Source: Actinomycetes bacterium (GTDB lineage: Bacteria; Actinomycetota; Acidimicrobiia; Acidimicrobiales; Palsa-688). Taken from it: a DNA stretch of 64,000 nt. A program made the translations under genes and the position numbers. The notes under the pieces were generated by a model that was not told the DNA's origin, made no database searches, and saw only the letters and a list, made by a program, of their open reading frames with translations. Positions within the stretch are counted from its first letter, which is position 1. Every line of letters starts with the position of its first letter. Below are positions 22,965-59,920 of this stretch, piece by piece. The DNA lies in assembly GCA_021828475.1 (NCBI GenBank), contig JAJZIY010000005.1, forward strand, positions 1 to 64,000, given 5' to 3'.

Positions 22965-23992
22965 TCGCCGGTGACCACAGCCCGCTGCGGCTGGCCGGCC
23001 CGAGCGGCCGTGAGGTCCTCCGCCGCCGGCACGGGCACCTCGCGCAAGCAGGCGGAGACGACGCTCTCGGGGCGCTCGCCGCGCACCCAGAGATCGGGCC
23101 GCAGCCTGAGCCGGTGCGCCAGGGCGGGCACGGCAACGGCCTTCACGTCCTCCGGCACGACGAAGTCACGCCCGCGCAACAGCGCCCATGCCCTCGACAG
23201 CTGCATCAGCGCCAACGAACCGCGCGGGCTGGCGCCGATCTCGACCGCCGGCCGCCCCCGTGTCGCAGCGACCAGCGCCACCACGTAGCGCCCGATCGGC
23301 TCGGACACGTGGACCGCCTCGACGGCCGCCTGCATGCCGAGCAGCTCACCGCCTGCGAGCACGGGACGCAGGGTCACCTCGTCGGAGCGCCGTTCGATGC
23401 GCCGGGCCAGCACCTCCCATTCGGCGTCGCCGTCGGGGTAGCCGACCGAGGCCCGGAGCAGGAAGCGGTCGAGCTGCGCCTCGGGCAGCGGGTACGTCCC
23501 CTCGAGCTCTATGGGGTTTTGCGTGGCCACGACGAGGAAGGGAGGGCCCAGCGGGCGGGTCGTGCCGTCGATGGTGACCTGGCGCTCCTGCATGGCTTCG
23601 AGCAGCGCTGCCTGGGTCCGGGGCGAGGCCCGGTTGACCTCGTCGGCCAGCAGGAGGTTGGTGAAGACGGGCCCGGGTTGGAAGGCGAACTCCGCGGCCT
23701 TCTGGTCGTAGACCGACGAACCCGTGATGTCCGCCGGCATCAGGTCCGGCGTGAACTGGGCCCTGGCGAACCCGATACCCATGACCTGGGCGAACGACCG
23801 GGCCATGAGGGTCTTGGCCAACCCCGGGTAGTCCTCGAGCAGGACGTGGCCGTTGGCCAGGAACCCAGCCATCACCAGGGTCAGGACCGGGCCCTTTCCG
23901 ACGACCGCCCTGGCCACTTCGGCGATCACCAGCCGTGCCCGCTGCCCGGCGTCCTCGACCTCGGGCACCGGGGCCTCGGGACGCTGGCTCAC
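22961..23992 (-). CDS. MoxR-family AAA+ ATPase (DUF58 partner)
   Basis: 343 residues. Walker A is the MoxR variant LLEDYPGLAKT, Walker B LLLADEVNRA, sensor 1 ATQNPIELEGTYPLPEAQ, and the lid contains SPRGSLAL. Chaperone-like ATPase role inferred from the family. GTG 23992 overlaps the upstream stop as GTGA. One of two MoxR genes in the window; the other (46189) pairs with a CoxE-type VWA protein. Confidence 0.94.
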   Translation of the reverse strand: MSQRPEAPVPEVEDAGQRARLVIAEVARAVVGKGPVLTLVMAGFLANGHVLLEDYPGLAKTLMARSFAQVMGIGFARAQFTPDLMPADITGSSVYDQKAAEFAFQPGPVFTNLLLADEVNRASPRTQAALLEAMQERQVTIDGTTRPLGPPFLVVATQNPIELEGTYPLPEAQLDRFLLRASVGYPDGDAEWEVLARRIERRSDEVTLRPVLAGGELLGMQAAVEAVHVSEPIGRYVVALVAATRGRPAVEIGASPRGSLALMQLSRAWALLRGRDFVVPEDVKAVAVPALAHRLRLRPDLWVRGERPESVVSACLREVPVPAAEDLTAARAGQPQRAVVTGE

Positions 23993-35171: not shown

Positions 35172-35624
35172 TCAGGCTACCCGGTGGGCCGAGTGGTCCA
35201 ATGACCAGGGCTTGGGAGCCTGGCCTGCGTGTTTGTGCTCCGGGCCCGCATAGACCTTGAGCTTGCCGATCATCTGCCTGCCGAGCGGGCCCTTGGGCAG
35301 CATGCCCTTGACGGCGATGCGCACGAGCTCCTCGGGCCGGTCGGCCAGCAGCTCGTCGTAGGACCGGGCCTTGATGCCGCCGGGGTAGCCCGAGTAGCGG
35401 TAGTGGAACTTCTTCTGTCCCTTGTCGGAGGACAGCACGAGCTTGGCGGCGTTGACCACGACGACGTAGTCGCCGGTGTCGAGATGGGGAGCGAAAGTAG
35501 CCTTGTGCTTGCCACGCAGCAGGCGGGCCACCTCGGACGCCAGACGTCCGAGCACGGCACCCGAGGCGTCCACCTCGTACCAGGCATGCTCGATTTCGGA
35601 GGCTTTGGGAGAGTAAGTACGCAC
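35172..35624 (-). CDS. rplM: 50S ribosomal protein L13
   Basis: 150 residues with [31 protein letters not shown] and [16 protein letters not shown] 35624 gives (M)[14 protein letters not shown], the usual beginning. First gene of the minus-strand array ending with alr. Confidence 0.97.
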
Positions 35625-35945
35625 GGGCCCACCAGCATACCTGGTCCGTCCGGGCTTGGCCAGGCGAGCTGCCGGGCCCCCCGTGGCCTGCCCGAGAGCG
35701 CCGCCAGGCGCGGCGCCCGCCCTGCCAGGGCCAGGCACGAGAGCTGCGGCACAGGTGCCCCGGCCCTCCCCAAGGGCCCCGCAGGAGAGCGCCCGGGAGG
35801 AGGGTACGGGCCGCCCCCGGCCCCGGGCTGGAGGGGAGCCGGTCAGGTGCGCCGTGGGCCTGGGGTGCGCCCGGCGAGACGGTCGGCGAGAGGGAGGCCG
35901 GTCCCGGTTTGTTCGGCTGCCCGCGACACGCCTAATTTGTTGCCA
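35625..35945. other. Divergent regulatory region between rplM and coxB
   Basis: 321 bases without a gene. The coxB promoter lies at its right end. On the minus strand TATGCT stands about ten bases before the rplM GTG and could be its -10 box, weakly supported. The rest is GC-rich with no recognisable riboswitch or tRNA. Confidence 0.5.
35909..35938 (+). promoter_or_regulatory. coxB promoter, predicted leaderless
   Basis: TTGTTC (35909-35914), 18-base spacer, TAATTT (35933-35938), then seven bases and GTG 35946. The AT-rich -10 box stands out in very GC-rich sequence, and no Shine-Dalgarno precedes the GTG. Confidence 0.6.
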
Positions 35946-36713
35946 GTGCACGCGTTGCTCGCATCCGTCATCCGCTGGGGCTCACCCAACGGCATCACGT
36001 CTCAGTCGAAGAACCTCACGTTCCTCTGGTCGCTGACGTACTACATCGCCATCCCGCTCGGCGCCATCGTCGTGGGCCTCATCGTCTGGTGCGCCGTGCG
36101 CTACCGGGAGCGGCCGGGCGAGGAGCGCATACCCCGGCAGGTCCAGTACCACATCCCGCTGGAGGCGCTGTACACCATCGTGCCGATCATGCTGGTGATC
36201 ACCCTGTTCGTGTTCACCTACCGGGCCGAGGACCGCGTGGACGCCATCGCCAAGAACCCCGCCCTGGTCATACGGGTCGACGCCTTCCAGTGGGGCTGGA
36301 AGTTCACCTACCCCAACGGGTTCCAGGAGATCGGCAGCGTGGCGACGGAACCCAGCGTGGACAGCCCCAACCTACCCGTGCTGACCCTCCCCGCCGGGGA
36401 GACGGTGCAGGTCAACCTGTTCAGCGACGACGTCAACCACTCGTTCTACGTGCCGGCCTTCCTGTTCAAGCGGGACGCGATCCAGGGCATCAACAACTCC
36501 TTCGACGTCAACATCGACCCGAGCGTGGTCGGGCGCCGCTTCATCGGCGAGTGCACGCAGTTCTGCGGCCTTTACCACCCCTACATGCGCTTCTGGCTCG
36601 AGGTCATGGCCAAGGACAAGTTCAACGGCTGGCTCGCCAGCCACCACGGCGTGGAGACCAACTCGGCGACCAAGGTGACGCCGGTCCCCAATCAGGGAGG
36701 TAGGACCAAGTGA
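35946..36713 (+). CDS. coxB: Cytochrome c oxidase subunit II
   Basis: Electron-entry subunit of the aa3-type terminal oxidase. 255 residues: two membrane segments (about 30-52 and 80-98), then a cupredoxin domain outside. All CuA ligands are visible: H165 in VNHSFYVP, then C203, C207, H211 and M214 in [13 protein letters not shown]. There is no obvious cleavable signal peptide. GTG 35946 is chosen from the -10 spacing; two TTG codons lie just upstream in frame. Starts the coxB-ctaD-ctaF operon. Confidence 0.95.
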
Positions 36714-38512
36714 GCCTCGTCCAGGAAAGGCCGCCCCACTTCGAGCAGCCGGAGCGGCGCCTCACCGAGGTCGTGCCCGGGCCCAAGCCGAGGGGCGTGC
36801 TGTCCTACCTGACCAGCACCGACCACAAGCAGATCGGCATCAACTACATGGTGACCAGCTTCACCATGTTCCTCATCGCCGGGGCGATGGCCGTGCTCAT
36901 GAGGGTCCAGCTGTCGGTGCCCAACAACAACTTCCTGTCACTCGAGACCTACAACCAGCTCTTCACGATGCACGGCAGCATCATGCTGTTCCTCTTCCTC
37001 GGCCCGTTCGCCTTCGGCATGGCCAACTACCTGGTCCCGCTGCAGATAGGTGCACCGGACATGGCCTTCCCCAGGTTCAACGCCTTCTCCTACTGGCTGT
37101 TCCTCGGCGGCTGCATAACCATGATGTCGGGCTTCCTCACCTCGTCCGGCGCCGCCGACTGGGGCTGGTTCGCCTACGCGCCCCTGACCGAGGCGATCCA
37201 CAGTCCCGGCCCGGGTGGCGACCTGTGGATATGCGGAGTGGCGCTGGCCGGCTTCTCGGGGATCTTCACCGCCGTCAACGTGATCACCACCGTGTTCACC
37301 CTCAGGGCGCCGGGCATGGTCATGTTCCGCATGCCCATCTTCACCTGGAACCAGCTCATCACCGCCTTCCTGGTGCTGCTCGCCTTCCCCGTGCTCACAT
37401 CCGCCCTCGTCATGCTCTGGACTGACAGGCACCTCGGGACCCACTTCTTCGACCCGACGGGCGGTGGCCAGCCGATCCTGTGGCAGAACCTGTTCTGGTT
37501 CTTCGGCCACCCCGAGGTGTACATCCTGGCGCTGCCCTTCTTCGGGGTGGCGACCGAGATCATCGCCACCTTCTCGCGCAAGCCGGTGTTCGGCTACAAG
37601 GGCATGGTCTTCGCCACGCTCTCGATCGGCGGACTGTCGATGGGCGTCTGGGCCCACCACATGTACACCACCGGAGCGGTGCTGTTGCCGTTCTTCGCCA
37701 TCCTCACCTTCCTGATCTCGGTCCCGACGGGCATCAAGTTCTTCAACTGGATCGGGACCATGTTCAGGGGCTCGGTGCGCCTCGACTCACCCATGCTGTT
37801 CGCCCTGGGCTTCCTCATCTGCTTCCTTCTGGGCGGCTTCACGGGCGTCATGCTGGCCGAGCCACCCTTGGACTTCCAGCTGCACGACACCTACTTCGTC
37901 GTCGCGCACTTCCACTACGTGCTCTTCGGGGGCTCGGTCTTCGCCGCCTTCGGCGGCATCCACTACTGGTTCCCGAAGTTCACCGGTCGCAAGCTGGACG
38001 AACGCCTGGCGAAGCTCACCTTCGTCATCATGTTCATCGGCTTCAACCTCACCTTCTTCCCCCAGCACGACCTGGGACTGCGGGGCATGCAGCGACGCAT
38101 CGCCGTGTACCCGGCGCACCAGGGCTGGGACTTCCTCAACATGCTGTCGTCGATAGGGTCGTTCATCCTGGCCTTCGCCATGCTGCCCTTCATCGTCAAC
38201 GTGTGGGTCACGCTGCGCAGCGGCAAGCGGGTGGGCCCCAACCCCTGGGACGGCATGACGCTCGAGTGGGCGACGCAGTCGCCGCCGCTCGAGCACAATT
38301 TCGAGTTCCTGCCCCCGATCCGCTCGGAGCGCCCCGTCTGGGACCTCAACCACCCGGACCACACGAGCCTGCCCCACGGGCGCCACATGCGCGAGCTGGC
38401 GATGGCGGGCGCCCGCACGGCTGTGCCCGGACAGGACGGGACGCCGGGTGACGGCTCGCCGCCGGATGCCGCCCGAGGCGCGACGGACGGTGAGGGGGGT
38501 CGGGCCCGATGA
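36710..38512 (+). CDS. ctaD: Cytochrome c oxidase subunit I
   Basis: Catalytic heme-copper subunit with twelve membrane helices, 600 residues. Visible signatures: [10 protein letters not shown] (heme a ligand), [13 protein letters not shown] (CuB His near 267 and the cross-linked Tyr), AHHMYTTG (two CuB His), [14 protein letters not shown] (heme ligands). Type A proton channel. GTG 36710 overlaps the coxB stop as GTGA, with GGAGGTAGG upstream. The cytosolic C-terminus is extended and polar. Confidence 0.98.
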
Positions 38513-40624: not shown

Positions 40625-41533
40625 TCAGCTCCCGGCCGGGCCGGAAGGCTCGACCGGTGCGGGCTCGACCGAGGCGTCCGCTCGCGCCTCGACCACCTCG
40701 GACCGGGCGGCCGGGGCCTGCAGCTGTGCCGCCTGCACCGGCTGGGCCGCAGTCAGGGCCTCCGGCGTCCCTGCCCCGAGCGCACCTGCTGAAGAGGGTG
40801 CGCCGGACAGCCCCATCTGTACCCGCATCTGGTCCAGCCGCTGCTGCGCCTCGATGTTGACACTGGCCTGCTCGATCTCGAGCATGCGGGCTTCGACGCC
40901 CTGGCCGCTGAGCTCGGCCGTACCGAGCGCCTTGGCGTACTGCGCCTCGATCTTCTGGCGGACGTCGTCGAAGGTCGGCACGTCCTGGTCGACCGTCTGG
41001 GACAGGCTCGCCATCGCAGAGTTGAGCTGCTGCTGCATCCTGGCCTGGTCAAGCTGGGAGAGCAGCTTCTGGCGCTCGGCGAGCTTCTGCTGGAGGGCGT
41101 TCGCGTTCTGCTGCACCGCGGCCTTTGCCTGCTGTGCGGCCTGGGTGGCCTGCAGGTGCATCGTCTTCAGGTCGTCGACCCGCTTCTCGGTGACGATCAG
41201 CCGGTTGGCGAAGGCCTCGGCCGTCTGGTTGTACTCGGCCGCCTTGGAAGCGTCACCCCTGGCAGCGGCGTCGGCGGCCATCTGCAGGGCTTGGCGGGCC
41301 GAGCCGCTGATCCTCTCGAGCTCCTGCATCGACCGGTTGAGCTGGAGCTCGGTCTGCTTTTGGTTGGCTATCACGCTCGCGGCCTGTTCGACGAGGCGGC
41401 GATGCTGGTCCTGCGCCTCGGCCATGGCCTGTTCGAGCTGCACCTTGGGGTCAGCCGTCTCCTCGAACCGCCCCGAGAGCTTGGCGGTCAGGTACTTCCA
41501 CCTCCGGCGTAGGACTTTCCACATGGCTCGCAT
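40625..41533 (-). CDS. PspA/IM30 family protein
   Basis: Membrane-stress, ESCRT-III-like protein, 302 residues. It is almost entirely helical coiled coil (about 20-235), with ADPKVQLEQAMAEAQ near the start as in the family, then a Pro/Ala/Glu-rich tail. The N-terminus MWKVLRRRWKYLTAK can form an amphipathic membrane helix. A second ATG three codons in is an alternative start. The upstream neighbour is another coiled-coil membrane protein, possibly a partner. Confidence 0.9.
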   Translation of the reverse strand: MRAMWKVLRRRWKYLTAKLSGRFEETADPKVQLEQAMAEAQDQHRRLVEQAASVIANQKQTELQLNRSMQELERISGSARQALQMAADAAARGDASKAAEYNQTAEAFANRLIVTEKRVDDLKTMHLQATQAAQQAKAAVQQNANALQQKLAERQKLLSQLDQARMQQQLNSAMASLSQTVDQDVPTFDDVRQKIEAQYAKALGTAELSGQGVEARMLEIEQASVNIEAQQRLDQMRVQMGLSGAPSSAGALGAGTPEALTAAQPVQAAQLQAPAARSEVVEARADASVEPAPVEPSGPAGS

Positions 41534-41632: not shown

Positions 41633-42412
41633 TCAGGGCCCGGGAGCCTCCTCCGGGCCGCCGCCGGCCGGCGCCCTTGCCTCGTCGAGGGCTGCGACGA
41701 GGGCCTCCAGGTGGGTCGAGACGCTGGCGAGGTCGCTGCTGGCCGGGCCCGCCGCTCCAAGCAGGCGGCCCGAGGTGGCTGCAAGCTTCTCCATGCGCTC
41801 GACCAGCACACCCAGCCTGGCCGACAGCTCGTCTGCGGCCGCCTGCGAGCGGCGCAGGGAACGCAGCTCGGCGGCCAGCTGCTCCTCGCGGGCCTGCAGG
41901 GCGGTGCGCTCCGCAGGCGCGGCGGAACGCAGCCGGCCCTGCACTGCGTCCAGGTCAGCTGCCACTCGCTCGGCGCCACGGAGCGGTGTACCCAGGGCCG
42001 CTCCCGCCCGAGCCATGCTCCACTGCTCCTCGACGGCCGCTGCAGCCACGGCAGACGCCCGCGCCATCTGTTCTGCGAGCGGCCCGGGCGGGCAGTCCCT
42101 GGCGAACTGCTGGAGCTGCTTGCGAGCTCGCGCCGCCCTGGCGGTGAGCCCTCTCCAAGGTTCGGGCACCGCCCAGGGGTCCACTCGGACCGAGCGCCGC
42201 ACCGCCCGCCTGCGTAGAGCTGCCTTGCGCCTGACATACGCCCACGACAGCCGGGCGCAGTAGCCCGCGGCCCCGAGGCCCATGGCCACGGCCAGCCCGA
42301 GGTGAGCAGCCTCGCCTGCGGCCACACCGGCGCCCGCCAACACGATCGCGCTCGGCGATGCGGCCGCACGGGCCACGCTCGGAAGGCGTCGGGCTGGCCG
42401 CTTCTCGAGCAC
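41633..42412 (-). CDS. Membrane-anchored coiled-coil protein upstream of pspA
   Basis: 259 residues. One or two hydrophobic segments at about 20-58, a basic stretch (YVRRKAALRRRAVRRSVR), then long Ala/Glu/Arg-rich helices predicted as coiled coil (AADLDAVQGRL to LVERMEKLAA). No enzyme motif. It lies 99 bases upstream of pspA on the same strand, so a role in PspA recruitment is an inference from context. Confidence 0.7.
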   Translation of the reverse strand: MLEKRPARRLPSVARAAASPSAIVLAGAGVAAGEAAHLGLAVAMGLGAAGYCARLSWAYVRRKAALRRRAVRRSVRVDPWAVPEPWRGLTARAARARKQLQQFARDCPPGPLAEQMARASAVAAAAVEEQWSMARAGAALGTPLRGAERVAADLDAVQGRLRSAAPAERTALQAREEQLAAELRSLRRSQAAADELSARLGVLVERMEKLAATSGRLLGAAGPASSDLASVSTHLEALVAALDEARAPAGGGPEEAPGP

Positions 42413-42553: not shown

Positions 42554-44854
42554 TTGCGCCAGCCTCCCTGCACCGTCCGACCCCGCAACAGCGCACTGGC
42601 CGTGTCCTGGCTGCTGCTCGCGGCAGCCATGGCGCCGGTGCCAGCGGCGCTGCCGGCCGCGGCGGCCGTCACATCTGGGAACGGGCACGTTCCGGGTGCC
42701 GGGGGCGGCATATCGCGGCTCGCACCGGGCCTCGACTTCGTGCAGGAGTGGGCGCGCGGGCCCTTCGCCGGCGACCGGGGCAACCCGATCGCGATGTCGT
42801 CGCCGGTGGTCGCCACCCTCGACGACTACGGGCCGGCCGTCGTCGTTGGCGACCGCAGCGGCTACGTCTACGCCTTCCACCTCGACGGCGGGACGCGGGT
42901 TGCCGGCTGGCCAACCTACGACGGCGGGGCCCCGATCGACTCGACGCCGTCCGTCGAACCGACGGGGGGCTCGGCCCTCGACACGGTCTTCGTCGGCGAG
43001 GGCAACGCCGCCGCCTACCGGACCGGCGGTTACGCCGCATTCGCTCCCGACGGTCACATGCTCTGGCAAACCCGCGTCGTAGAGCCGCCGACCGACAAGA
43101 ACCCGGCCTACGCCGTCCAAGCCTCCATGACGGTGGCAGAACTGCAGGGCCGGCCGGCGGTGTTCGCAGGCTCGCTCGGCCAGGAGGCCTACGCGCTCGA
43201 CGCCACCAACGGGGCTACCCTGACGGGCTGGCCGTTCTTCAGCGCCGACAGCGTCTTCTCCACGGCAGCGGCCGCCGACCTCTACGGCAATGGTCACACC
43301 GAACTGGTGGTGGGGGGTGCCTCGACGCACGGCTTCGCCCTCGGGCAGGGTTACCACAGCGGGGGCCACCTGCGCGTGCTCGACTCACGCGGTGGCCTCG
43401 TGTGCCACGCCGACCTCAACCAGGAAGTGGACTCGTCGCCCGCCGTCGGCGGCTTCCTGGCCGGCGGGGCCACCGGCATAGCCGTGGGCACGGGTTCTTT
43501 CTATGCCGGGGCGACGGACAGCAACGTGCTCAACGCCTTCGGCAGCCACTGCAACCTCGTGTGGTCGGACACGCTCGACGGTTTCACCGGGTCCAGCCCG
43601 GCACTGGCCGACCTGTCGGGCACAGGTGCCCTCGACGTCGTCGAGGGCACCGACAACGGGGCGGCAGGCTCCGTGTGGGCGCTCGACGGCTCTGACGGCT
43701 CGACCCTCTGGCACGTCTACGTCGGCGGCAGGGTGATCGGTGGCGTGGTCACCGCCGACCTCAGCGGGCAGGGTTACCAGGACGTCCTCGTCCCGACGAC
43801 CCACGGGGTGGACGTGCTGGACGGTCGCAACGGGTACCTGCTCGACGTGCTCGCCCCCAACCTGGGCTTCCAGAGCTCCCCGCTCGTAACCGAGGACCCC
43901 AACGGTACCGCCGGCGTCACGCTGGCCGGTTACGACGGCGCTGACAACGAGGGCGTCGTGCTCCACTACGACATCCCGGGCAGCAACGGTGCCCTGGCGG
44001 TGGGTGCCGGGTCGTGGCCCATGTTCCACCACGACCCGCAACTGACGGGGACCACCGGTGCCGCCCAGGCCCCTTCGGGTTCGCCGTGCGACGTGCCGTC
44101 GGCCGCCAACAATGGCTACGACCTGGTGAGCTCCGAGGGCGCTGTCTACAGCTTCGGCCAACCCGACTGCGGCTCGGCCGGCGCGGGCGCCCCCCGCTCG
44201 CCTGCCGCCGGCATCGCCATGTCACCCGCCGTGGGCGGCTACTGGCTGGCCCTTGCGGACGGAGCCGTGCTGGCGTTCGGCTCGGCCTCCGACTTCGGGT
44301 CGATGTTCGGGCACCATCTCAACTCGCCCGTGACCGGCATCGCTGCAACTCCAGACGGGCGTGGGTACTGGCTCGTCTCGGCTGACGGGGGCGTTTTCGG
44401 CTTCGGTGACGCCAATTACTACGGCTCGCCCCCGTCGCCAAGCGCCAGGATCGTCGGCATCGCCTCCAGTCCCGACGGCCACGGCTACGTGCTGGCCGGC
44501 GCCGACGGCTCCGTGTACGAGTTCGGAGACGCCCAGTTCTATGGCTCGATGGCCGGCCGGCACCTCAACTCGCCGGTCGTCGGCGTGACCGAGGACGACG
44601 CCACGGGGGGGTACTGGCTCCTCGCTGCCGACGGGGGCGTCTTCGCCTACGGGGCGCCTTACGAGGGCTCAGCCGGCGCCATCGACCTGGCCGCGCCCAT
44701 GGTGGCCATGGCATCGACGACCGACGGGCGGGGCTACTGGCTCATTGCCCGCGACGGCGGGGTGTTCGCCTACGGGGACGCGCCCTACAGGGGCTCGGCC
44801 GCCGGCCGTACGGGCGGGGTGCCGATAGCCGCAGCCGCCGGCTACAGCGGCTGA
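42554..44854 (+). CDS. Exported two-propeller protein (FG-GAP/PQQ-like plus six short repeats)
   Basis: 766 residues. Signal peptide about 1-38 (WLLLAAAMAPVPAALPAAAA). Residues 45-510 form repeats of the FG-GAP/PQQ kind, for example AVVVGDRSGYVYAFHLDGG, TVFVGEG and ADLSGTGALDVVEGTDNG. Residues 515-766 hold six copies of a second repeat, GYWLVxxDGGVFxFGDAxxYGS. This second module also ends the protein at 56408-59734. The start TTG 42554 is the only codon that keeps a basic signal-peptide N-region; GTG further in is possible. Function unknown, probably cell-surface binding or adhesion. Confidence 0.82.
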   Translation: MRQPPCTVRPRNSALAVSWLLLAAAMAPVPAALPAAAAVTSGNGHVPGAGGGISRLAPGLDFVQEWARGPFAGDRGNPIAMSSPVVATLDDYGPAVVVGDRSGYVYAFHLDGGTRVAGWPTYDGGAPIDSTPSVEPTGGSALDTVFVGEGNAAAYRTGGYAAFAPDGHMLWQTRVVEPPTDKNPAYAVQASMTVAELQGRPAVFAGSLGQEAYALDATNGATLTGWPFFSADSVFSTAAAADLYGNGHTELVVGGASTHGFALGQGYHSGGHLRVLDSRGGLVCHADLNQEVDSSPAVGGFLAGGATGIAVGTGSFYAGATDSNVLNAFGSHCNLVWSDTLDGFTGSSPALADLSGTGALDVVEGTDNGAAGSVWALDGSDGSTLWHVYVGGRVIGGVVTADLSGQGYQDVLVPTTHGVDVLDGRNGYLLDVLAPNLGFQSSPLVTEDPNGTAGVTLAGYDGADNEGVVLHYDIPGSNGALAVGAGSWPMFHHDPQLTGTTGAAQAPSGSPCDVPSAANNGYDLVSSEGAVYSFGQPDCGSAGAGAPRSPAAGIAMSPAVGGYWLALADGAVLAFGSASDFGSMFGHHLNSPVTGIAATPDGRGYWLVSADGGVFGFGDANYYGSPPSPSARIVGIASSPDGHGYVLAGADGSVYEFGDAQFYGSMAGRHLNSPVVGVTEDDATGGYWLLAADGGVFAYGAPYEGSAGAIDLAAPMVAMASTTDGRGYWLIARDGGVFAYGDAPYRGSAAGRTGGVPIAAAAGYSG

Positions 44855-44875
44855 GGGCGGGCGGTAGGCTTGGCC

Positions 44876-46117
44876 ATGACCTCCGTGAACGATCTCGGGC
44901 GGCGGGCCAAGAGCGCCAGCCGGGCGCTGGCGGTTGCAGCTACGGGCACCAAGGACGCCGCCCTCCTCGCGGCGGCGGACCTGATGCTCCACCGCGGCGA
45001 GGAGATCCTGGAGGCCAACGCCGGGGACGTGCGGCGGGCGACCGACGCCGGGAGCAGCCCCACAGTGGTGGACAGGTTGCGCCTCAACGAGGCCAGGGTG
45101 GCGTCCATGGCCGCCGGGCTCAGGCAGGTGGCCGCCCTCGCCGATCCCGTCGGGGAGGTGACCGAGGGTTGGACCAGGCCCAACGGCCTGACCATCGAGC
45201 GCGTGCGTGTGCCCCTCGGCGTCGTGGCCATCATCTACGAGAACCGGCCCAACGTCACCAGCGACGCCGCCGGCCTGTGCCTCAAGTCGGGCAACGCCGC
45301 CTTCCTGCGCGGTAGTTCGGCTGCCCTCGGCTCCAACCGGGCGGTGGCCGCCGTGCTGCGGGAGGGCATCGCCAAGGTCGGGTTGCCCGAAGACTGCGTG
45401 GTGCTCGTCGAGGACACCAGCCACGAAGCAGCGCGAGACTTCATGCGCCTGCGCGGCGTCATCGACTGCCTCATCCCCCGGGGGGGCCCGTCGCTCGTCC
45501 AGGCCGTGCTCGAGAACGCCACGGTGCCGTACGTGATAGACGGTGACGGCAACTGCCACGTCTACGTCGACGCCTCGGCCGACATCGACATGGCGGTATC
45601 GATCACTGTCAACGGCAAGACCCAGCGTCCGAGCGTCTGCAATGCCACGGAATCGCTCGTCGTGCACCGCCGGGTCGCCTCCGAGTTCCTGCCCCGGGTG
45701 GCCGAGGCGCTGGCAGGCGTGAGGCTCGTAGGCGACGAGACGGCGTGTGCCCTCGTGCCCGCTATGGAGGCGGCCGGCGAGGACGACTGGGGCCGCGAGT
45801 ACCTGGACCTGGTGCTGAGCGTGAAGGTCGTGGACGACCTCGACGCGGCGATCGGGCACGTACAGCGCTACAGCAGCGGTCACACCGAGGCCATCGTCAC
45901 CCGCGACCTCGACGCCGCCAGGCGTTTCACCCGCGAGGTGGACGCGGCAGCGGTCATGGTCAACGCATCGACGCGGTTCACCGATGGCGAACAGTTCGGC
46001 TTCGGTGCCGAGATCGGCATAAGCACTCAGAAACTGCACGCGCGGGGCCCGATGGGCCTGCGCGAGCTCACCACCACCAAGTACGTCGTCATGGGGACCG
46101 GCCAGATCCGGAGCTGA
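44876..46117 (+). CDS. proA: Gamma-glutamyl phosphate reductase
   Basis: Second step of proline synthesis, NADPH-dependent reduction of glutamyl phosphate. 413 residues, normal length. The catalytic cysteine is in [10 protein letters not shown], preceded by the long aldehyde-dehydrogenase-like fold with [15 protein letters not shown] and FLRGSS. ATG 44876 is preceded by TAGGCT five bases upstream. proB is not adjacent. Confidence 0.97.
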
Positions 46118-46188: not shown

Positions 46189-47085
46189 ATGAGCACGACA
46201 GGGGCACCGGGGACCAGGTTCGAGAGCCCGGAGGCGGTAAAGGACGCTCTCGGGGGTGTCGGCTACCTGGCTGACACGTCGATCGCGTCGGTCGTCTTCC
46301 TCGGCGACCGGCTGGGCAAGCCCGTGCTCGTCGAGGGCCCCGCTGGCACCGGGAAGACCCAGCTGGCCAAGTCCGTCGCCGAGATGACCGGTGCCAGGTT
46401 GGTGCGGCTCCAGTGCTACGAGGGCCTCGACGAGTCCAAGGCTCTCTACGAGTGGAACTACAAGAAGCAGTTGCTTCGCATCCAGGCCGAGCAGGTCGCC
46501 AGCGAGGACGAGAGCTGGGACGAGCTCGAGCAGGACATCTTCTCCGAGCCGTTCCTCATGGCCAGGCCCCTGCTGGAGGCGATCAGGGCCACCGACCCCG
46601 TTGTGCTGCTCGTGGACGAGGTCGACAGGGTCGAGGTCGAGACCGAGGCGCTGCTGCTGGAGGTGCTCTCCGACTACCAGGTCTCGGTCCCCGAAATGGG
46701 CACGGTCAGGGCGACGCAGGTCCCCCTGGTCTTCCTCACCTCCAACAACACCAGGGAGCTGTCCGAAGCCCTCAAGCGGCGGTGCCTGTTCCTGCACATC
46801 GACTACCCGACCCTCGAGCGCGAGCGCGAGATCGTGCTGGCCAGGGTGCCTGGCATCCGGGCCGCTCTCGCAGACCAGATCGTCCGCACGGTCGCCCTCA
46901 TAAGGGGGCTCGAGCTGAAGAAGGCCCCGTCCGTCTCCGAGACCCTGGACTGGGCCCGGACCCTCCTGCTTCTCGGAGTGTCGGAGCTGGACGCTGCGTC
47001 TGCAACCGCGACGCTGCAGGTACTGCTCAAGCACAAGACGGACATCGAGAGGGCGTCGCGCCAGCTCGCCGCTGCCCCGAGCTAG
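46189..47085 (+). CDS. MoxR-family AAA+ ATPase (CoxD-like)
   Basis: 298 residues. Walker A EGPAGTGKT, Walker B VVLLVDEVDR, sensor TSNNTRELSEALKRRC with the arginine finger region. This is the CoxD/NorQ-like branch that works with a VWA protein, here encoded 7 bases downstream. An in-frame ATG at 46180 is within the candidate -10 box, so I use 46189. No carbon monoxide dehydrogenase genes are nearby, so the CO-related name should not be taken as function. Confidence 0.92.
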   Translation: MSTTGAPGTRFESPEAVKDALGGVGYLADTSIASVVFLGDRLGKPVLVEGPAGTGKTQLAKSVAEMTGARLVRLQCYEGLDESKALYEWNYKKQLLRIQAEQVASEDESWDELEQDIFSEPFLMARPLLEAIRATDPVVLLVDEVDRVEVETEALLLEVLSDYQVSVPEMGTVRATQVPLVFLTSNNTRELSEALKRRCLFLHIDYPTLEREREIVLARVPGIRAALADQIVRTVALIRGLELKKAPSVSETLDWARTLLLLGVSELDAASATATLQVLLKHKTDIERASRQLAAAPS

Positions 47086-47092
47086 TCCGGAC

Positions 47093-48532
47093 GTGAGCAC
47101 GACGGCGGGCGCCGTAACGGACGCGAGCGGAGCGGACGAGGTCGCCAACGGCCTGCTGCTGACCTTCTCCCACTTCGTCGAGGAGCTCCGGGCGGCCGGC
47201 GTGCCGGTGAGCACCACCGAAGTGCTCGACGCGACCGAGGCCCTGCGCCACCTTCCGGTCGAGGACAGGGCCGCATTGAAGGCCGGCATGGCGGCCGCCC
47301 TCGTCAAGCAGGAAGGCCACTGGCGCGCCTTCGACACGCTCTTCGAGCTCTTCTTCTCGCTGCGCGCCCGCCTGGCGGGCATGGAAGACACCGAAGGTGC
47401 CGGCGTGGAGGGCGGCGGGGGCCCCGACGACGCCAGGCCCCTCACCCAGTCCGAACTGGCCCAGATGGCCCTGGAAGCGCTGCTCAACGGGGACGAGCGG
47501 CTGATGGCGGCGGTGGCCCGTGCCGCCGTCGAGCGCTACGCCGGCATGGAGCCGGGCCGCCCGGTCGGGGGCAGCTACTACGTCTTCAAGACGCTGAGGC
47601 AGCTCGAAGCCGAGGCCCTGCTGTCCCGGCTGTTGGCCCAGGCGCAGGAGACCGGGGGCCTGGAAGGGCTGACGCAGGCCGATGAGTACCGCCGCAGGCT
47701 GGCGCAGCTACGAGCGGAGGTGGAGGGCGAGGTGCACCGCCGCCTTGTCGAGGACCGGGGCGCAGAGGCGGTGGCGCGGGCCACCCGCCGCCCCCTGCCC
47801 GAGGACGTGGACTTCATGCACCTGGGCAAGGAGGAGCTGGCCGCCCTGCAGCGGACCATCCAGCCGCTGGCCCGCAAGCTCGCCGTGCAGATGGCCCGCA
47901 AGCGCCGCCGCGGCCACCAGGGGCGCCTCGACTTCAGGGCCACCGTGCGCCGGTCACTGTCCACGGGTGGCGTCCTCGTCGACCCCCGCTTCAAGGCTCC
48001 TCGCCGCTCCAAGCCGGAACTGTGGGTGTTGGCCGACATATCTGGCTCGGTGGCGGCCTTCGCCAGGTTCACGCTGCAGTTGGTGTACGCGCTGTCGTCG
48101 CAGTTCTCGCGCACCCGGGCATGGGCCTTCATCGACGGGGTGGACGAGGTGACAGACCTGTTGCGGGGAGCCGACGACATGGGCGCCGCCGTGCACTCCA
48201 TCAACACCCAGGCCGACGTCATATGGACCGAGGGGCACTCGGACTACGGCCATGCACTGTCGGAGTTCGTGGGCCGGTGGGGCCGCGAGCTGACTTCGCG
48301 CACCACCGTGCTCGTCCTCGGCGACGCCCGCAACAACTACCACCCGCCCCAGGCCTGGGCGGTCGCAGGGATGGCGCAGCGGGCCCGCAACATCTGGTGG
48401 CTGAACCCCGAGCCGCGCGCGTACTGGGACACCGGGGACTCGGTCCTCGCCCAGTACGGGGTGCACTGCACCGGGGTCGACGAGTGCCGCAACCTGCGCC
48501 AGCTGCGCCACTTCGTAGAGCAGCTACCCTGA
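47093..48532 (+). CDS. VWA domain protein, CoxE-like
   Basis: 479 residues. The N-terminal half is helical (FSHFVEELRAAGVPVSTTEVLDA) with a charged region around RRGHQGRLDFRATVRRSL. The C-terminal VWA-like domain has the MIDAS motif DISGS in WVLADISGSVAAF, then WTEGHSDYGHAL and LVLGDARNNYHPP. MIDAS plus MoxR partner indicates ATP-driven remodelling or metal insertion of a client. GTG 47093. Follows the ATPase by seven bases. Confidence 0.9.
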   Translation: MSTTAGAVTDASGADEVANGLLLTFSHFVEELRAAGVPVSTTEVLDATEALRHLPVEDRAALKAGMAAALVKQEGHWRAFDTLFELFFSLRARLAGMEDTEGAGVEGGGGPDDARPLTQSELAQMALEALLNGDERLMAAVARAAVERYAGMEPGRPVGGSYYVFKTLRQLEAEALLSRLLAQAQETGGLEGLTQADEYRRRLAQLRAEVEGEVHRRLVEDRGAEAVARATRRPLPEDVDFMHLGKEELAALQRTIQPLARKLAVQMARKRRRGHQGRLDFRATVRRSLSTGGVLVDPRFKAPRRSKPELWVLADISGSVAAFARFTLQLVYALSSQFSRTRAWAFIDGVDEVTDLLRGADDMGAAVHSINTQADVIWTEGHSDYGHALSEFVGRWGRELTSRTTVLVLGDARNNYHPPQAWAVAGMAQRARNIWWLNPEPRAYWDTGDSVLAQYGVHCTGVDECRNLRQLRHFVEQLP

Positions 48533-48564
48533 AGTTTGACCGCCAGCACAGGAGGCCCCGCCCG

Positions 48565-49821
48565 ATGGTCCTCGCCAGTCGTGAGTTCATAGCTTCCCCG
48601 GACGATCGCAAAGACCAGATCGTCTTCAAGTGGCCCGACCTGCGCATACGCAAGTTCACCCGGGCGATCGTCAACGCCGACCAGTTGGCCCTCTTCATCA
48701 ACACCGGGCAGGTAGTGGGGACGATGGGCCCCGGCCGCCACCAGATCGACGCGGACGAACTGCCCTTCCTCGGGGCCTTCGTGGACTTCGCCACAGGGGG
48801 TAACGCCTACCGGGCGGAGCTGTACTTCGTCGGCACCCGGGAGTACCCCGGCTTCACCTTCGGCGGGCGCATCGACGACATCCAGGACCCCCAGACCGGC
48901 ATGGTGGTCACCCTGCGGGTCTTCGGTGACTACTCGTTGCAGGTCACGGACCCTGCCGCCCTCATCACCAACCTGGTCGGCACCGTCGACGTCACAGACA
49001 ACAACCGGGTGGCCGGGTGGGTCAGCGACCAGCTGCTCAAGGTGATGCGGACGGAGGTCACAACCCAGGTGGTGCGCAACGGCTGGCCGGTCCTCGGCCT
49101 GTCTGCCTACACGCCGGACATAGAGAAAGCCGTCATCCTGGCCGCCAACAACCAGCTCACCACCTACGGCGTGGCACTGGTGCGGATGGGCAACTTCGAC
49201 CTCAACCTGTCGGACACCGACGAGGCCCAGCTGAAGAGCCTGGCCAAGGACACCGCCTACAGCCGCCTGGCGGGAGGCTTCAACCGCTACGCCTCAGGGG
49301 AGATGGCACTCGGTGCCGGCCAGGGCATGGCCCAGGGCGGCAGCGGCGACAGCGGTGCCTTCCTGGCCGCCGGCCTGGGGTTGGGCGGACAGCTGGCCGG
49401 GGGCGCCGGCCCGCAGGGCCAAGGCGGTGAGCCGGGCCCCGTACCGCCCCCAGCACCCGGCTTCGCAGGTGGGGGTGCCGGTTATGCCGGAGCACCCGCC
49501 TCCCATGCCACTGCGGCCACCGTCGAGTGCCCCAACTGCCACGCGGCGGCGCCTACCGGAGCGAAGTTCTGCCCCTCGTGCGGCCAGGCGGTACCGGCTC
49601 CCGCCGGGCACTGCAACGCCTGCGGGACCGACAACCCGCCGGGCTCCCGCTTCTGCGCCAGTTGCGGGCAGCCACTCGGCCCCCAGCCCGTGCACTGCCC
49701 GTCCTGCGGAGCGGAAGCGGCCGCCGACCAGCGCTTCTGCGCCTCCTGCGGCACGGCTGTCGCACCTCCTGCCACCGGCGGCACCGGGACTGGGCCCCAG
49801 CCGGAGCCTGGGCCCCAGTAG
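48565..49821 (+). CDS. SPFH-domain protein with three C-terminal zinc ribbons
   Basis: 418 residues. Residues 1-245 match the SPFH (stomatin/flotillin-like) family often labelled virion-core-like or YdjI-type: QIVFKWPDLRIRKFTRAIV near the start and SDQLLKVMRTEV later. A Gly-rich hinge (about 260-315) leads to three successive zinc ribbons (about 322-400) with six CxxC knuckles: CPNC, CPSC, CNAC, CASC, CPSC, CASC. ATG 48565 is preceded by AGGAGG. SPFH proteins scaffold membrane microdomains; in Bacillus YdjI recruits PspA-like proteins, and pspA is 7 kb away here. Same strand as the MoxR-VWA pair. Confidence 0.88.
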   Translation: MVLASREFIASPDDRKDQIVFKWPDLRIRKFTRAIVNADQLALFINTGQVVGTMGPGRHQIDADELPFLGAFVDFATGGNAYRAELYFVGTREYPGFTFGGRIDDIQDPQTGMVVTLRVFGDYSLQVTDPAALITNLVGTVDVTDNNRVAGWVSDQLLKVMRTEVTTQVVRNGWPVLGLSAYTPDIEKAVILAANNQLTTYGVALVRMGNFDLNLSDTDEAQLKSLAKDTAYSRLAGGFNRYASGEMALGAGQGMAQGGSGDSGAFLAAGLGLGGQLAGGAGPQGQGGEPGPVPPPAPGFAGGGAGYAGAPASHATAATVECPNCHAAAPTGAKFCPSCGQAVPAPAGHCNACGTDNPPGSRFCASCGQPLGPQPVHCPSCGAEAAADQRFCASCGTAVAPPATGGTGTGPQPEPGPQ

Positions 49822-49925
49822 AAGAAGTAGTAGACCAGCGGCCGGTGCCGCCATGGCCCCTGCGGGCCGGGCACCGCCGGCCCAGGAGATGGAGGACACC
49901 GATTTTCTATACCGGAGGCGGCTCC

Positions 49926-50882
49926 TTGACGGTGCTGCTCATCATGGTGGTCATGTTCCTGCTCCGCTACCAGATGATGGCTTCGAGGCGACGGGGCCCG
50001 TGGGGCTCCGGGCGCAGCCGGTGGCCCGGCCAGAACAGCCGGGTACCGCCCCGGGCTCCACCCTCGTGGCCCGGTGGCGGCCCGGCCGGGGGCGGTCGCG
50101 CCGTGCCCGGGCCCGGCCCCGGTGGCGACGCCTCGGTCCCGGCAGGGCCCGGGCGGGGAGCCGGTGCCCGCCTGGCTGGTTCCGGGGCCCCTTGGCCCGG
50201 CGCTCCCCGGCCCGGTGCCCACGCACCGGATTGGCTCTCCGACCCGCGTCCCGCCGCCGCTTCGGTACCCGCCGAGCTGTTCCCGGTGGACCACGCCAGG
50301 GCGGTGCAGGCGTCACACCCTCTAGACGTCGGCCTGGCAGCCATCAAGGCCCACGACCCCGCCTTCGACTTGGAACAGTTCACCCAGAGGGCCCAACAGG
50401 TCTTCTTCACCGTCCAGCAGGGATGGGTGGAGCGCAACCCGGACCTCAGCCGGCGCGTGATGGCCGACGGCCTCTGGCAGGCTCAGCGCTTCCAGGTGCA
50501 GAGCTACCTGGAAGCTCACCGCCGCAACGTGGTCGACAACCTGGCTGTGGCCAATATCTGGCCCGTTGCCGCCAGTTGCTCGTCCAGCACTGATGTCGTG
50601 ACCGTCAGGATCCTGGCCGCCTGTACCGACTACGACGTGGACGATGCCACCGGAGCGGTGGTGAGGGGCGACACCGAGGTGAGGTCGTGGGCCGAGGACT
50701 GGACCTTCCAGCGCTCCTCCTCCGCCGTCACCCGGCCGGGCGGGACCACCATGGGCGAACGCTGCCCCAATTGCGGGGCACCTCTCGATGTCGACATCGC
50801 CGGGAGCTGCCGGTACTGCAAGGCACCGATAATGTCCGGGGACTACGACTGGGTCCTGGCCCGGATATCGCAAGTCGGTTGA
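49926..50882 (+). CDS. Tim44-like domain protein with N-terminal membrane anchor and C-terminal zinc ribbon
   Basis: 318 residues. A single membrane helix (VLLIMVVMFLLRY) starts right at the N-terminus. It is followed by a Pro/Gly/Arg-rich linker (about 20-115), a Tim44-like domain (about 125-270; RRVMADGLWQAQRFQVQSYL, IWPVAASCS, WAEDWTFQRS) and a zinc ribbon (CPNCGAPLD, CRYCK). TTG 49926 is supported by GGAGGCGG seven bases upstream. The zinc ribbon echoes those of the preceding SPFH protein, suggesting partners. Confidence 0.85.
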   Translation: MTVLLIMVVMFLLRYQMMASRRRGPWGSGRSRWPGQNSRVPPRAPPSWPGGGPAGGGRAVPGPGPGGDASVPAGPGRGAGARLAGSGAPWPGAPRPGAHAPDWLSDPRPAAASVPAELFPVDHARAVQASHPLDVGLAAIKAHDPAFDLEQFTQRAQQVFFTVQQGWVERNPDLSRRVMADGLWQAQRFQVQSYLEAHRRNVVDNLAVANIWPVAASCSSSTDVVTVRILAACTDYDVDDATGAVVRGDTEVRSWAEDWTFQRSSSAVTRPGGTTMGERCPNCGAPLDVDIAGSCRYCKAPIMSGDYDWVLARISQVG

Positions 50883-50900
50883 CGTGGCACCTGTAGCCGG

Positions 50901-51458
50901 GTGACCGCCGGCGGCACCGGCCGGCGCCGGCGGGCGGCAGCGTTGGCCGTGGGTGCGGCCACTCTGGTCCTGGTCTGGGCGGCAGCCGGCGGCTTGGACA
51001 GCAAGGCTGGGCCTGCTCGGACCGTGGTGGCCTCGGGCCCCGCCCGGCACGCGGCCTCAGTGGTGAGCCACTTCCTCGCCCTGCGCGAGGCCGGGGAGTG
51101 GGCCGCGGCCTGCCGCTACTTCGTCCCAGGATCGACGGCGCGCACCCAGTGCCTCCGACAGGTCCCAAGTGCCGACAAGGGCCTGTCGTACACCGGCGCC
51201 GTAGCTGTCCCTGCTGCTGTCGCCGACGGCAGCCGTGCGCTGGTTTCGGTGACCGGGCACCTCTGCGTGTCGGACAGCCGCTTCAAAGGGCAGGGGCGCT
51301 GCGTGGCCAATGCCAACCCCGGCGCCGGGATGCCAGGCGCCAAGCTGAGCTTCCAGGCCGCCTACTCGCTGGCCGTGTCCAAAGCCGACCGGTCCTTCAG
51401 CCCTTGGCCCTGCCAGCGCGTGCACGGGGAGTGGTACCTGGTGCCCGTGACGCTGTGA
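50901..51458 (+). CDS. Anchored or secreted protein of unknown function
   Basis: 185 residues. Basic start, one hydrophobic segment (about 12-30), then an extracytoplasmic domain with four cysteines (ACRYF, TQCL, HLCVS, GRCVA) plus PCQRVHGEWYLVPV at the end. The shape (VVSHFLALREAGEWAAACRYF early, GEWYLVPV late) resembles NTF2/SnoaL-like folds, unproven. GTG 50901, 18 bases after the Tim44-like gene, so probably the last gene of this cluster. Confidence 0.7.
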   Translation: MTAGGTGRRRRAAALAVGAATLVLVWAAAGGLDSKAGPARTVVASGPARHAASVVSHFLALREAGEWAAACRYFVPGSTARTQCLRQVPSADKGLSYTGAVAVPAAVADGSRALVSVTGHLCVSDSRFKGQGRCVANANPGAGMPGAKLSFQAAYSLAVSKADRSFSPWPCQRVHGEWYLVPVTL

Positions 51459-56407: not shown

Positions 56408-59400
56408 TCAGGTACCTGCTATGGCCACGACGGGCCCTGATGCGGCCAGCACCGTCTGCGCGAGCGCAGGGGAGGCGTCCCCGAAGCCGTACACGCGCCC
56501 GTCCGAAGCGGCCATGTAGTAGCCCTTGCCGTCGGGTGTCATGGCCAACCCGACGATGTCGCGCACCTTGACATGGCGGGCCGGCAGGCTGCCGAAGTAC
56601 CTCGCCCCCCTGCCGAAGGTGAAGGCCCCGCCGTCCGCTCCCACGAGCAGGTAGCCGGCGCCGGATGGGGCGACCACCAGGGCTCGCACGTCGTGGACGT
56701 GGTGGTGGGACGCCGGGAGGGAGCCGTGGTAGCGGGCCGTACCGAAGTCGAAGACGCCGCCGTCGGCCCCCACGAGCAGGTAGCCGGCCCCGTCGGGCGC
56801 CGAGGCCATCCCCACGATGTCATGGACGTGCACGTGGCGGGCGGGCAGCGAGCCGTGGAAGCGGGCGTCGCCGAAGGCGAAGAACCCACCGTCGCGTCCC
56901 ACCAGCCAGTACCCGGCCCCGTCGGGCGTGGCGGCAATCGCGACTATGTCCTTCACCCGGACATGCAGTGCCGGCAGGTCGCCCTCGAAACGGGCCGTCC
57001 CGAAGGCGCTGACCGTGCCGTCCGCCGTCGCCACCCAGTAGCCGGTACCTCCCGGCGCGGCAGCGATGCCGACGACCTTGCCACCGGCAGGACCGGGCCC
57101 GCCCATGGCACGGGCGGCGCCGACACCGAAGACGACCCCTTTGGTCGTGGCCAGCCAGTAGCCGGGAGCGGGCAGGCGGACGATCTCCTCCAGCACCTTG
57201 GAACTGGAGGGGGTGAAGCCCTGGCTCCCCGAGTAGGACGCCTGGACAAGGCGCGTGCCGGGCGTGCCGTAGACCACCGTGCATGTGGCACTGCCCCCAG
57301 CACTCACCGGCAGCGACGTGCAGCCCTCCAGGGCGGCTCCGTCAGCGATGAAGCTCACCGAACCGGCGGTGGGCACCGGCGTCACCGTGGCGGTGTAGGT
57401 CAGTTGCACCCCCGTCAGGACCGGGCCCGCCGAGGCCACGACGCTCACCCTGGTGTGACGGGGCGGCGGGGGTGCCAGGTCCCCCGACTCGACGAGGGGG
57501 TAGCGCTCCTGGGCGTCCTGGTACCACCCCACAGCGGTGCACGCCAGCGCGGCCGTGCAGGAGGTCCCCAGGAGCTGAGCAGCCTGGCCCGAGGGGGTCG
57601 GGGGCGATGCCGTGACCCAGGTGCCGCCTGTCAGCACGGCAACGAACGCCTGGTCGCCTGCGCCCACTGCGCTCCGGACGTAGCCGGTGGCAGCGCACGA
57701 GGCGGGCGACACGCAACTGACCGCGCTCAGACCGGCCCCGCCGCCGCCACCAGCGGGGCCGCCGACCACGGTCCACACCGGCGGGGAACCAGCCCCGACG
57801 GCGCCATGCACAGCCGGCTCCTCGACCAGCGGTAGGTCACCGGTGGCCACCGTCGAGGAGCCGACGGCCAGGCAACGACCCGTGCCCGGGCACGAGACGG
57901 AGCTCAGCATGTCCGAAGCGGAGGCCGTCGCGGCGGCCCCGGCACCCGACCAGGAACCCGAGGCCAGGGTCTCAACGAGCCCTCTTGTGCCCTGGCCGCC
58001 CGAAGCGGTGCCAACGGCCGTGCACGTCCCGGTGCCGGGGCAGGAAACCGCCAGCAACTCGCCGGCCGTGCCCACCATCGGCAGCGCCTGGAGCGACCAG
58101 CCGTTCGAAGGCCCTGTGACGGCGATGGGGACGGCCTTGCCGGAGGTCCCGACGTAGTAGCCGACTGCGGTGCAGGCTCCGACCGCCGGGCAGGACACGG
58201 CCTGCAGATAGGTGGCGGCCGAGGTACCGACGCCCGGGCTGGCGACCACCGCCCAGGCACCAGCGGAAAGGGTCTCGATCAGTGGCTGTGCCACCCCGGC
58301 CGAGTCGACGTAGTAGCCCACGGCGACGCACTGCCCCAGGGCGGGGCAGGACACGCCCTGCAGGTAAGCGGGAGCGCCGGAAACCAGGCCCGGCACCACC
58401 GGAGCCGGGGCGGCCTCCGGCGACCACAGGCCCGCCGAGAGCACCTCGACCAGGGGTGCGGGTAGGCCCGTCAGGCTCACGGTGTCACCGACGGCAACGC
58501 ATTGGCTCGTAGCCGGACAGGAGACCGAGAGCAGCTCGGCGTCCGACGCCTGGGGCACCGCCGTCCCAACGGTCGCCCACTTGCGGGCGATGCCCGAGGC
58601 AGCCAGCGGCAGGGTCACCGGTGAGAGGGGTAGCGCCTGCCAGCCAACGGCGTTACAGAGCTGGGAGGTGCAGGAAAGGGCGGACAACGCCCTGTCGCCG
58701 CCACCGGGACGGGGCCTGGACAACTGCCAGCTGCCAGCCGCCAGGAACAAACTGAGCGCTTGTCGCCGCTGGCCGTCCGAATACGAGCCGACTGCCGTGC
58801 ACTGCCCGACTGCCGGGCAGGCCACCGCGCTGAGCTGGTTGTTCGCCACGCTGGCGTCAGGGCTGGCCGTCACCGGCACCCACCGGCCGTTGGCGAGGAC
58901 GTCCACGAGCGTCTGATTGGCATGGCCGTTGAAGTACCACCCGACGGCAGCACAGGAGGTGGCGGACGGGCAGGAGACGCCGTCCAGGACATTGTCACCG
59001 CCCCCTCGCGAGGCCACGCCAACCGAGTACCAGGCCGTGCCCGACTGCGTCTCGATCAGCGGGTGCATGGCACCGGTGGCCGCCTGGTAGTAGCCGACGG
59101 CCGTGCAGCCGCCCGACTGGGTGCAGCTGACCGCCTGCAGGACGTCGCTCCTCACCCCTGGCTCGGCGGCCGGTACGACCGCCCAGCCGCCGGCGGAGAG
59201 CGTCTCGACGAGCGCCTGCTGGCGCCCGCCTGCGGTGTACCAGCCGACGGCGGCGCACGACGCCGGTGCCGAACAGGACACACCGGTCAGCTCCTCGGAA
59301 GCGCCCAGCTGTGGCAGCGGCGCCATCGACCACGTCCCCCCGGCCAGCACCTCCACCAGGGCCTGGCGTGACGAACTGCCAACGGCCTGCTGGTAGCCCA

Positions 59401-59734
59401 CGGCCACGCATTGGCCCGGTGCCGGACAGGAGACGGAGCCCAAGCCCACCAGCCCGGCCCCCGGCACGGGGGGCAGGGTCACCTGCTGCCAGGAGCCCGA
59501 AGTGCGCACCTCGACCAGAGGAGGCTGCCCGGTGGACAACGCGGCGGTGCCCACCGCCACGCACTGCGAGCCGGCGCAGGACACCCCCTCGAGCCGGCTC
59601 CGGGCCGCGCCTGGCGGGGCCGGCACCGACCCGGGCGACCACGACGAAGAAGGGACCTGTGCGGCTACCGCCCTGGCCACGGGTGAGAACAGGCCCGCCA
59701 GGATGGCGGCTGTCGCCATGACGCGGTTGAGCAT
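56408..59734 (-). CDS. Large exported protein: fourteen-repeat cysteine propellers, Ig-like domain, six-repeat module
   Basis: 1108 residues. Signal peptide 1-26 (AILAGLFSPVARAVAAQ). From about 40 to 790 there are fourteen copies of the repeat xSCxxxxxCxAVG, each followed by a strand like PLVETLSAGxW; fourteen fits two seven-bladed propellers. Residues about 800-885 resemble a bacterial Ig-like domain (TYTATVTPVPTAGSVSF, SYSGSQGF). Residues about 890-1108 hold six copies of GYWLVxxDGGVFxFGDARFHGS. ATG 59734 follows GAAGGGAG. Shares its first repeat with 4231-5730 and its last with 42554-44854. A surface receptor or adhesin is the inference. Confidence 0.85.
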   Translation of the reverse strand: MLNRVMATAAILAGLFSPVARAVAAQVPSSSWSPGSVPAPPGAARSRLEGVSCAGSQCVAVGTAALSTGQPPLVEVRTSGSWQQVTLPPVPGAGLVGLGSVSCPAPGQCVAVGYQQAVGSSSRQALVEVLAGGTWSMAPLPQLGASEELTGVSCSAPASCAAVGWYTAGGRQQALVETLSAGGWAVVPAAEPGVRSDVLQAVSCTQSGGCTAVGYYQAATGAMHPLIETQSGTAWYSVGVASRGGGDNVLDGVSCPSATSCAAVGWYFNGHANQTLVDVLANGRWVPVTASPDASVANNQLSAVACPAVGQCTAVGSYSDGQRRQALSLFLAAGSWQLSRPRPGGGDRALSALSCTSQLCNAVGWQALPLSPVTLPLAASGIARKWATVGTAVPQASDAELLSVSCPATSQCVAVGDTVSLTGLPAPLVEVLSAGLWSPEAAPAPVVPGLVSGAPAYLQGVSCPALGQCVAVGYYVDSAGVAQPLIETLSAGAWAVVASPGVGTSAATYLQAVSCPAVGACTAVGYYVGTSGKAVPIAVTGPSNGWSLQALPMVGTAGELLAVSCPGTGTCTAVGTASGGQGTRGLVETLASGSWSGAGAAATASASDMLSSVSCPGTGRCLAVGSSTVATGDLPLVEEPAVHGAVGAGSPPVWTVVGGPAGGGGGAGLSAVSCVSPASCAATGYVRSAVGAGDQAFVAVLTGGTWVTASPPTPSGQAAQLLGTSCTAALACTAVGWYQDAQERYPLVESGDLAPPPPRHTRVSVVASAGPVLTGVQLTYTATVTPVPTAGSVSFIADGAALEGCTSLPVSAGGSATCTVVYGTPGTRLVQASYSGSQGFTPSSSKVLEEIVRLPAPGYWLATTKGVVFGVGAARAMGGPGPAGGKVVGIAAAPGGTGYWVATADGTVSAFGTARFEGDLPALHVRVKDIVAIAATPDGAGYWLVGRDGGFFAFGDARFHGSLPARHVHVHDIVGMASAPDGAGYLLVGADGGVFDFGTARYHGSLPASHHHVHDVRALVVAPSGAGYLLVGADGGAFTFGRGARYFGSLPARHVKVRDIVGLAMTPDGKGYYMAASDGRVYGFGDASPALAQTVLAASGPVVAIAGT

Positions 59735-59920
59735 CGAGAACTCCCTTCGCCCCGTCCGTGCCCCGGAGACCTTTCTAATGCGTCGCGCAGGGGTGCGGCC
59801 AGGCGGGCGGTCCGTGCCGGGTGGCTCGCGCTCCCGGGTGGCCACCCCGGCGGCACCGACCCGAGGCCGGAAGACGGCGGCCCCGGGACCTGGCACCGGG
59901 CGCCGGCGGAAGGGTCGGCC

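Follow-up and report, generated by a model that had tools for sequence, protein, structure and literature searches.

A five-gene locus of an Acidimicrobiales bacterium comprises two separate conserved gene pairs and one stray gene

Five closely spaced genes on one strand, encoding a MoxR-type AAA+ ATPase, a VWA protein, an SPFH protein, a Tim44-domain protein and a small anchored protein, raise the question of whether they constitute one system. They lie in a stretch of 64,000 nucleotides (the window) from contig JAJZIY010000005.1 of an Acidimicrobiales bacterium, and the original prediction, made from the sequence alone, had described them as a single cluster. A search of the gene neighbourhoods of the five families recovered two conserved pairs and not the five genes as one unit. 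The locus has a 2+2+1 composition, with two separate conserved gene pairs and one stray gene.

Gene content of the locus

The genes of the locus and those immediately upstream that bear on its interpretation are as follows.

40625..41533, minus strand: PspA/IM30 (ESCRT-III-like) gene (Pfam PspA_IM30 2.5e-26; tblastn in 15 loci)
41633..42412, minus strand: coiled-coil, probably membrane protein beside pspA, cluster c9 (codon pattern, translation)
44870..46117, plus strand: proA, glutamate-5-semialdehyde dehydrogenase (NCBIfam PRK00197 588.6 bits; synteny)
46189..47085, plus strand: MoxR-type AAA+ ATPase, 298 aa (Pfam AAA_5/AAA_3, conserved motifs; NCBIfam MadB-like below cut-off)
47093..48532, plus strand: CoxE-type VWA protein, 479 aa, MIDAS DISGS (Pfam VWA_CoxE 4.5e-45; MoxR adjacency)
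48565..49821, plus strand: soluble SPFH (Band_7_1) protein, 418 aa (Pfam Band_7_1, DZR; no TM segment)
49926..50882, plus strand: Tim44-domain protein with N-terminal anchor and C-terminal zinc ribbon (Pfam Tim44 2.5e-20; predicted fold)
50901..51458, plus strand: small anchored orphan protein, gene 5 (no family match)

The five reading frames of the locus are open, all on the plus strand, with intergenic gaps of 7, 32, 104 and 18 bp and a coding-type GC3 of 0.84–0.92. Coordinates, GC3 and open frames thus bear out the predicted run of same-strand genes with short gaps, and Pfam agrees with the domains assigned to the first four (AAA+, VWA, SPFH with three ribbons, and Tim44).

The MoxR protein matches AAA_5 (1.5e-13) and related Pfam AAA models. 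Its Walker and sensor motifs are kept, as is the MIDAS DISGS of the VWA protein (37–38 homologues). The VWA protein scores 154 bits with PF05762 (cut-off 26.4) and has the MoxR gene 7 bp upstream, which together place it in the CoxE type. Scores with the NCBIfam MadB and MadC equivalogs (311/475 and 170/600 bits, respectively) do not reach the cut-offs, and no real match to the VWA protein came from a sequence search of the PDB.

The SPFH protein is composed of a Band_7_1 domain (PF13421, 85.6 bits with a cut-off of 24, E 4.7e-24), a Gly/Pro-rich linker and three C-terminal zinc ribbons. Its hydropathy maximum of 1.07 (KD19) indicates that there is no TM helix.

The Tim44 protein has a single N-terminal hydrophobic segment (KD19 of approximately 2.0), a Tim44 domain (PF04280, 73.5 bits with a cut-off of 29.6, E 2.5e-20) and one cysteine ribbon (CPNCGAPL...CRYC) of weak Pfam score, the four cysteines of which are invariant across 14 homologues. 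The predicted structure (pLDDT of 74 overall, mostly above 85 within the domain) is similar to human Tim44 (2cw9, Foldseek E 3.4e-07) and to mitoribosomal mL45. The start of the gene (49889–49930) is uncertain, being either the TTG at 49926 or, by alignment with locus L025 (MYARGSSL), a site approximately seven codons upstream with no usual start codon in frame.

Gene 5 has one N-terminal hydrophobic segment (KD19 of approximately 2.0), no match to a Pfam or NCBIfam family, and a structure predicted from a single sequence with a pLDDT of 43. It is missing from the locus in a genome of the same genus (G015), and weaker relatives lie elsewhere in three genomes of the window's family. Because the gene occupies the same position only in one sister species (G128, 78% identity), it probably belongs to neither module.

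Distribution of the two pairs

Among 118 genomes of the order, MoxR is matched in 115 and VWA in 113 (approximately 110 strongly), and by their match coordinates the two genes are neighbours in most of these genomes. The proA gene lies near MoxR–VWA, usually directly upstream, in 15 of 16 loci examined outside the window's family; among 29 loci from across the phylum, a VWA gene is present in 24 and proA in seven, with flanks of only 1.5 kb. MoxR and VWA were proposed as partners, and their adjacency in nearly every genome upholds this: they are an old, near-universal pair in the order, usually after proA, that also occurs in other families of the phylum. We take Rv2427c-Rv2426c-Rv2425c of Mycobacterium tuberculosis to be the same proA–MoxR–VWA series. 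A literature search on MadB/MadC, Rv2425c/Rv2426c or MoxR with SPFH returned nothing directly on the locus. A MoxR–vWA conflict system was considered and rejected: no third component was present among the neighbours scanned, and the pair is near-universal, not patchy.

The pair resembles CoxD–CoxE, NorQ–NorD and RavA–ViaA in setting an AAA+ ATPase beside a MIDAS-bearing VWA protein of the CoxE type, but here genes for CO dehydrogenase, NOR or fumarate reductase are absent beside it, and the lineage is proA-linked. By analogy, the best model is NorQ–NorD, in which the ATPase twists the linker of its VWA partner and acts on a membrane enzyme (PMC13036017). A MoxR hexamer would likewise drive the VWA adaptor to remodel a client. 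Subunits II and I of an aa3-type cytochrome oxidase are encoded at 35229–38512 (plus strand), approximately 8 kb upstream of MoxR–VWA; a link is conceivable because NorQ–NorD serves a heme-copper oxidase relative, but the oxidase genes were not seen among the conserved neighbours of MoxR–VWA. The window also holds a second, classical MoxR (AAA_3, AAA_lid_2; 22964–23992, minus strand), followed by a DUF58 protein (21678–22964, minus strand) in the common MoxR–DUF58 pair.

Common neighbours at the MoxR–VWA locus are obg, proB, pspA, proA, MoxR, VWA, cysH, sulfite reductase, DAHP synthase and nadD. The upstream PspA gene and coiled-coil protein that had been predicted are both present, on the minus strand, with PspA 3–5 kb upstream of MoxR. 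A plus-strand PspA was rejected: the open reading frames at 39087 and 41610 have no family match, and the true pspA is the minus-strand gene. The coiled-coil protein is a conserved neighbour in ten loci and has no Pfam match. Directly upstream of proA lies the gene (42554–44854, plus strand) of a secreted beta-propeller protein (PQQ_2) that carries repeats at its C-terminus, and related repeats are present in a large minus-strand protein at 56408–59896 (cluster c18).

The SPFH–Tim44 pair, by contrast, is patchy: of the 118 genomes, 14 give a strong match to SPFH and 11 to Tim44. All 11 genomes with Tim44 carry SPFH (hypergeometric p 3.8e-13, computed without regard to relatedness); the genes are adjacent in ten and split by contig ends in the eleventh. 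Among named genomes, the pair is found in Acidimicrobiales, Microthrix, Dormibacteraeota and Chloroflexi MAGs, Elusimicrobia and Clostridia. The suggestion that SPFH and Tim44 belong together is sustained by this co-occurrence and by adjacency from Acidimicrobiales to Clostridia, and the common zinc ribbons may be the cause of the pairing. SPFH without an adjacent Tim44 was found in genus g102 and in genomes G109 and G097.

Outside the window's family, the SPFH–Tim44 pair adjoins unrelated genes, such as that of a lysylphosphatidylglycerol-synthase-type membrane protein (LPG_synthase_TM), with apparent WYL regulators among its neighbours; no MoxR or VWA gene was near it in the loci examined, and no PspA was present in the stretches retrieved. 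A single five-gene system is rejected on account of this separation of the pairs and of the lack of conservation of the orphan, including its absence within the genus.

Other arrangements of Tim44–zinc ribbon proteins were also observed. In approximately 25 loci of Acidobacteria and Myxococcota (L067–L112), the gene follows that of a TPM-like membrane protein, and some of the proteins hold two Tim44/ribbon units. In Clostridia (L103, L117 and L118), a second, weaker Tim44-like protein is encoded between the Tim44–ribbon and SPFH–double-zinc-ribbon genes. Three genomes of one family (loci L032, L034 and L035) have a second Tim44–ribbon gene away from SPFH, in a neighbourhood common to all three.

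Meeting of the pairs in one family

SPFH is present in 23 of 32 genomes of the window's family and lies near proA and/or MoxR–VWA in 21 of these 23; contig ends in G124 and G129 prevent the linkage from being judged there. Three arrangements were distinguished: proA–MoxR–VWA–SPFH–Tim44 on one strand (A, ten genomes including the window), the same with MoxR–VWA inverted in place (B, nine genomes), and SPFH–Tim44 ahead of proA (C, two genomes). A midpoint-rooted SPFH tree, in which some branches beyond the family are long, recovers the family as one clade (91/94); within it arrangement C diverges earliest, leaving A and B as sister clades. Since the arrangements follow the tree, the modules most simply met once, the neighbourhood outlasting two rearrangements. 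In loci L221 and L222 (genus g102), SPFH lies beside MoxR–VWA, and Tim44 was not detected there.

The kept neighbourhood is mild evidence of coupling between the pairs. It would be explained if the four proteins formed one machine, in which MoxR–VWA remodels the SPFH–Tim44 assembly at the membrane by loading, disassembly or delivery of metal to the zinc ribbons, and the persistence of the linkage despite both the inversion of MoxR–VWA and the move of SPFH–Tim44 relative to proA, together with the short same-strand gaps of arrangement A, fits such a machine. However, the linkage arose once, an in-place inversion retains adjacency passively, and in arrangement B the pairs are divergent and up to 5.7 kb apart (G144). 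Moreover, nearly all genomes without SPFH–Tim44 have MoxR–VWA, and SPFH–Tim44 is unlinked elsewhere. We therefore regard a four-gene machine as unlikely; coupling to MoxR–VWA is possible, and co-operation between the modules is superfluous for explaining the data.

Possible roles of the SPFH–Tim44 pair

The SPFH protein has the features of the YdjI type, namely a Band_7_1 domain, no TM helix, a low-complexity region and a C-terminal zinc finger. YdjI of Bacillus subtilis, an SPFH protein that is itself soluble, carries a low-complexity region and a C-terminal zinc finger; it needs YdjG/YdjH for membrane localization, recruits PspA and is required for PspA foci (PMC8581546). A zinc ribbon is present in YdjG (PMC9239133), and the tie between SPFH proteins and PspA was already noted in a review of ESCRT systems (PMC10936438). 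The locus thus shares with pspA-ydjGHI a TM-less scaffold of this build, a zinc-ribbon membrane partner encoded alongside and the presence of pspA in the broader neighbourhood. It differs in that the partner is a Tim44-domain protein, there are three zinc ribbons and MoxR–VWA is next door. It is also not a pspA-ydjG-ydjH-ydjI operon, as pspA is on the opposite strand, approximately 7 kb from SPFH, and the partner is Tim44.

Our preferred explanation, to which we assign a probability of roughly 0.6, is that two independent modules met: a housekeeping MoxR–VWA pair and an SPFH–Tim44 pair working like YdjI with YdjG/YdjH. The Tim44 protein would be anchored by its one N-terminal helix, with the Tim44 domain and zinc ribbon probably in the cytosol, where it would rest on lipid and hold the soluble SPFH protein, presumably by direct contact. 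SPFH oligomers would organize the inner membrane and may offer a docking site for PspA. Several points argue against the YdjI-like reading: no homologue of YdjG or YdjH was identified, Tim44 is a different domain, and some SPFH genes lack an adjacent Tim44. Against PspA docking, PspA is on the other strand and is kept beside proA in genomes of the order both with and without SPFH–Tim44.

The Tim44 protein also resembles TimA and Tim44-like bacterial proteins in its N-terminal anchor, Tim44 domain and mitochondrial Tim44 fold, and differs from TimA in its extra C-terminal zinc ribbon and its pairing with SPFH. It could be imagined to act in protein targeting or insertion, like TimA or mL45, while SPFH would hold a platform of insertase or protease, as the fold matches to Tim44 and mL45 and weak matches to the NCBIfam TimA adaptor families (NF033778 and NF033779, 35.2/200 and 40.3/80 bits) would allow. 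Yet these scores are far under the curated cut-offs, and no insertase, translocase or protease gene is conserved beside SPFH–Tim44, so that we find this role quite improbable.

Vps4 disassembles the ESCRT-III polymer in archaea and eukaryotes. MoxR–VWA might similarly serve PspA, as an AAA+ disassembly engine for an ESCRT-III-like polymer, with SPFH–Tim44 as an added membrane dock. PspA is divergent beside proA–MoxR–VWA in many genomes of the order, and in Bacillus the membrane link of PspA is an SPFH protein (PMC8581546), but phylum-wide loci of proA–MoxR–VWA show no PspA in their 1.5 kb flanks, and the housekeeping neighbours (obg, proB and nadD) indicate that the synteny may be passive; we judge this very improbable. 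We give equally little credence to the idea that, in the window's family, the MoxR–VWA motor, the SPFH–Tim44 dock and PspA are one membrane-repair machine; if it were true, an AAA+ motor would recycle the SPFH or PspA polymer, as a bacterial counterpart of Vps4–ESCRT-III.

On the preferred explanation of two independent modules, an apparent five-gene system is split into parts that are testable separately, and the cluster amounts to a variation of modest novelty, not to a new machine. The SPFH–zinc ribbon/Tim44–zinc ribbon pair is widespread in several phyla, and no description of SPFH together with Tim44 and a zinc ribbon was found in the searchable literature. It is likely a second way in which scaffolds of the YdjI kind are anchored to the membrane.
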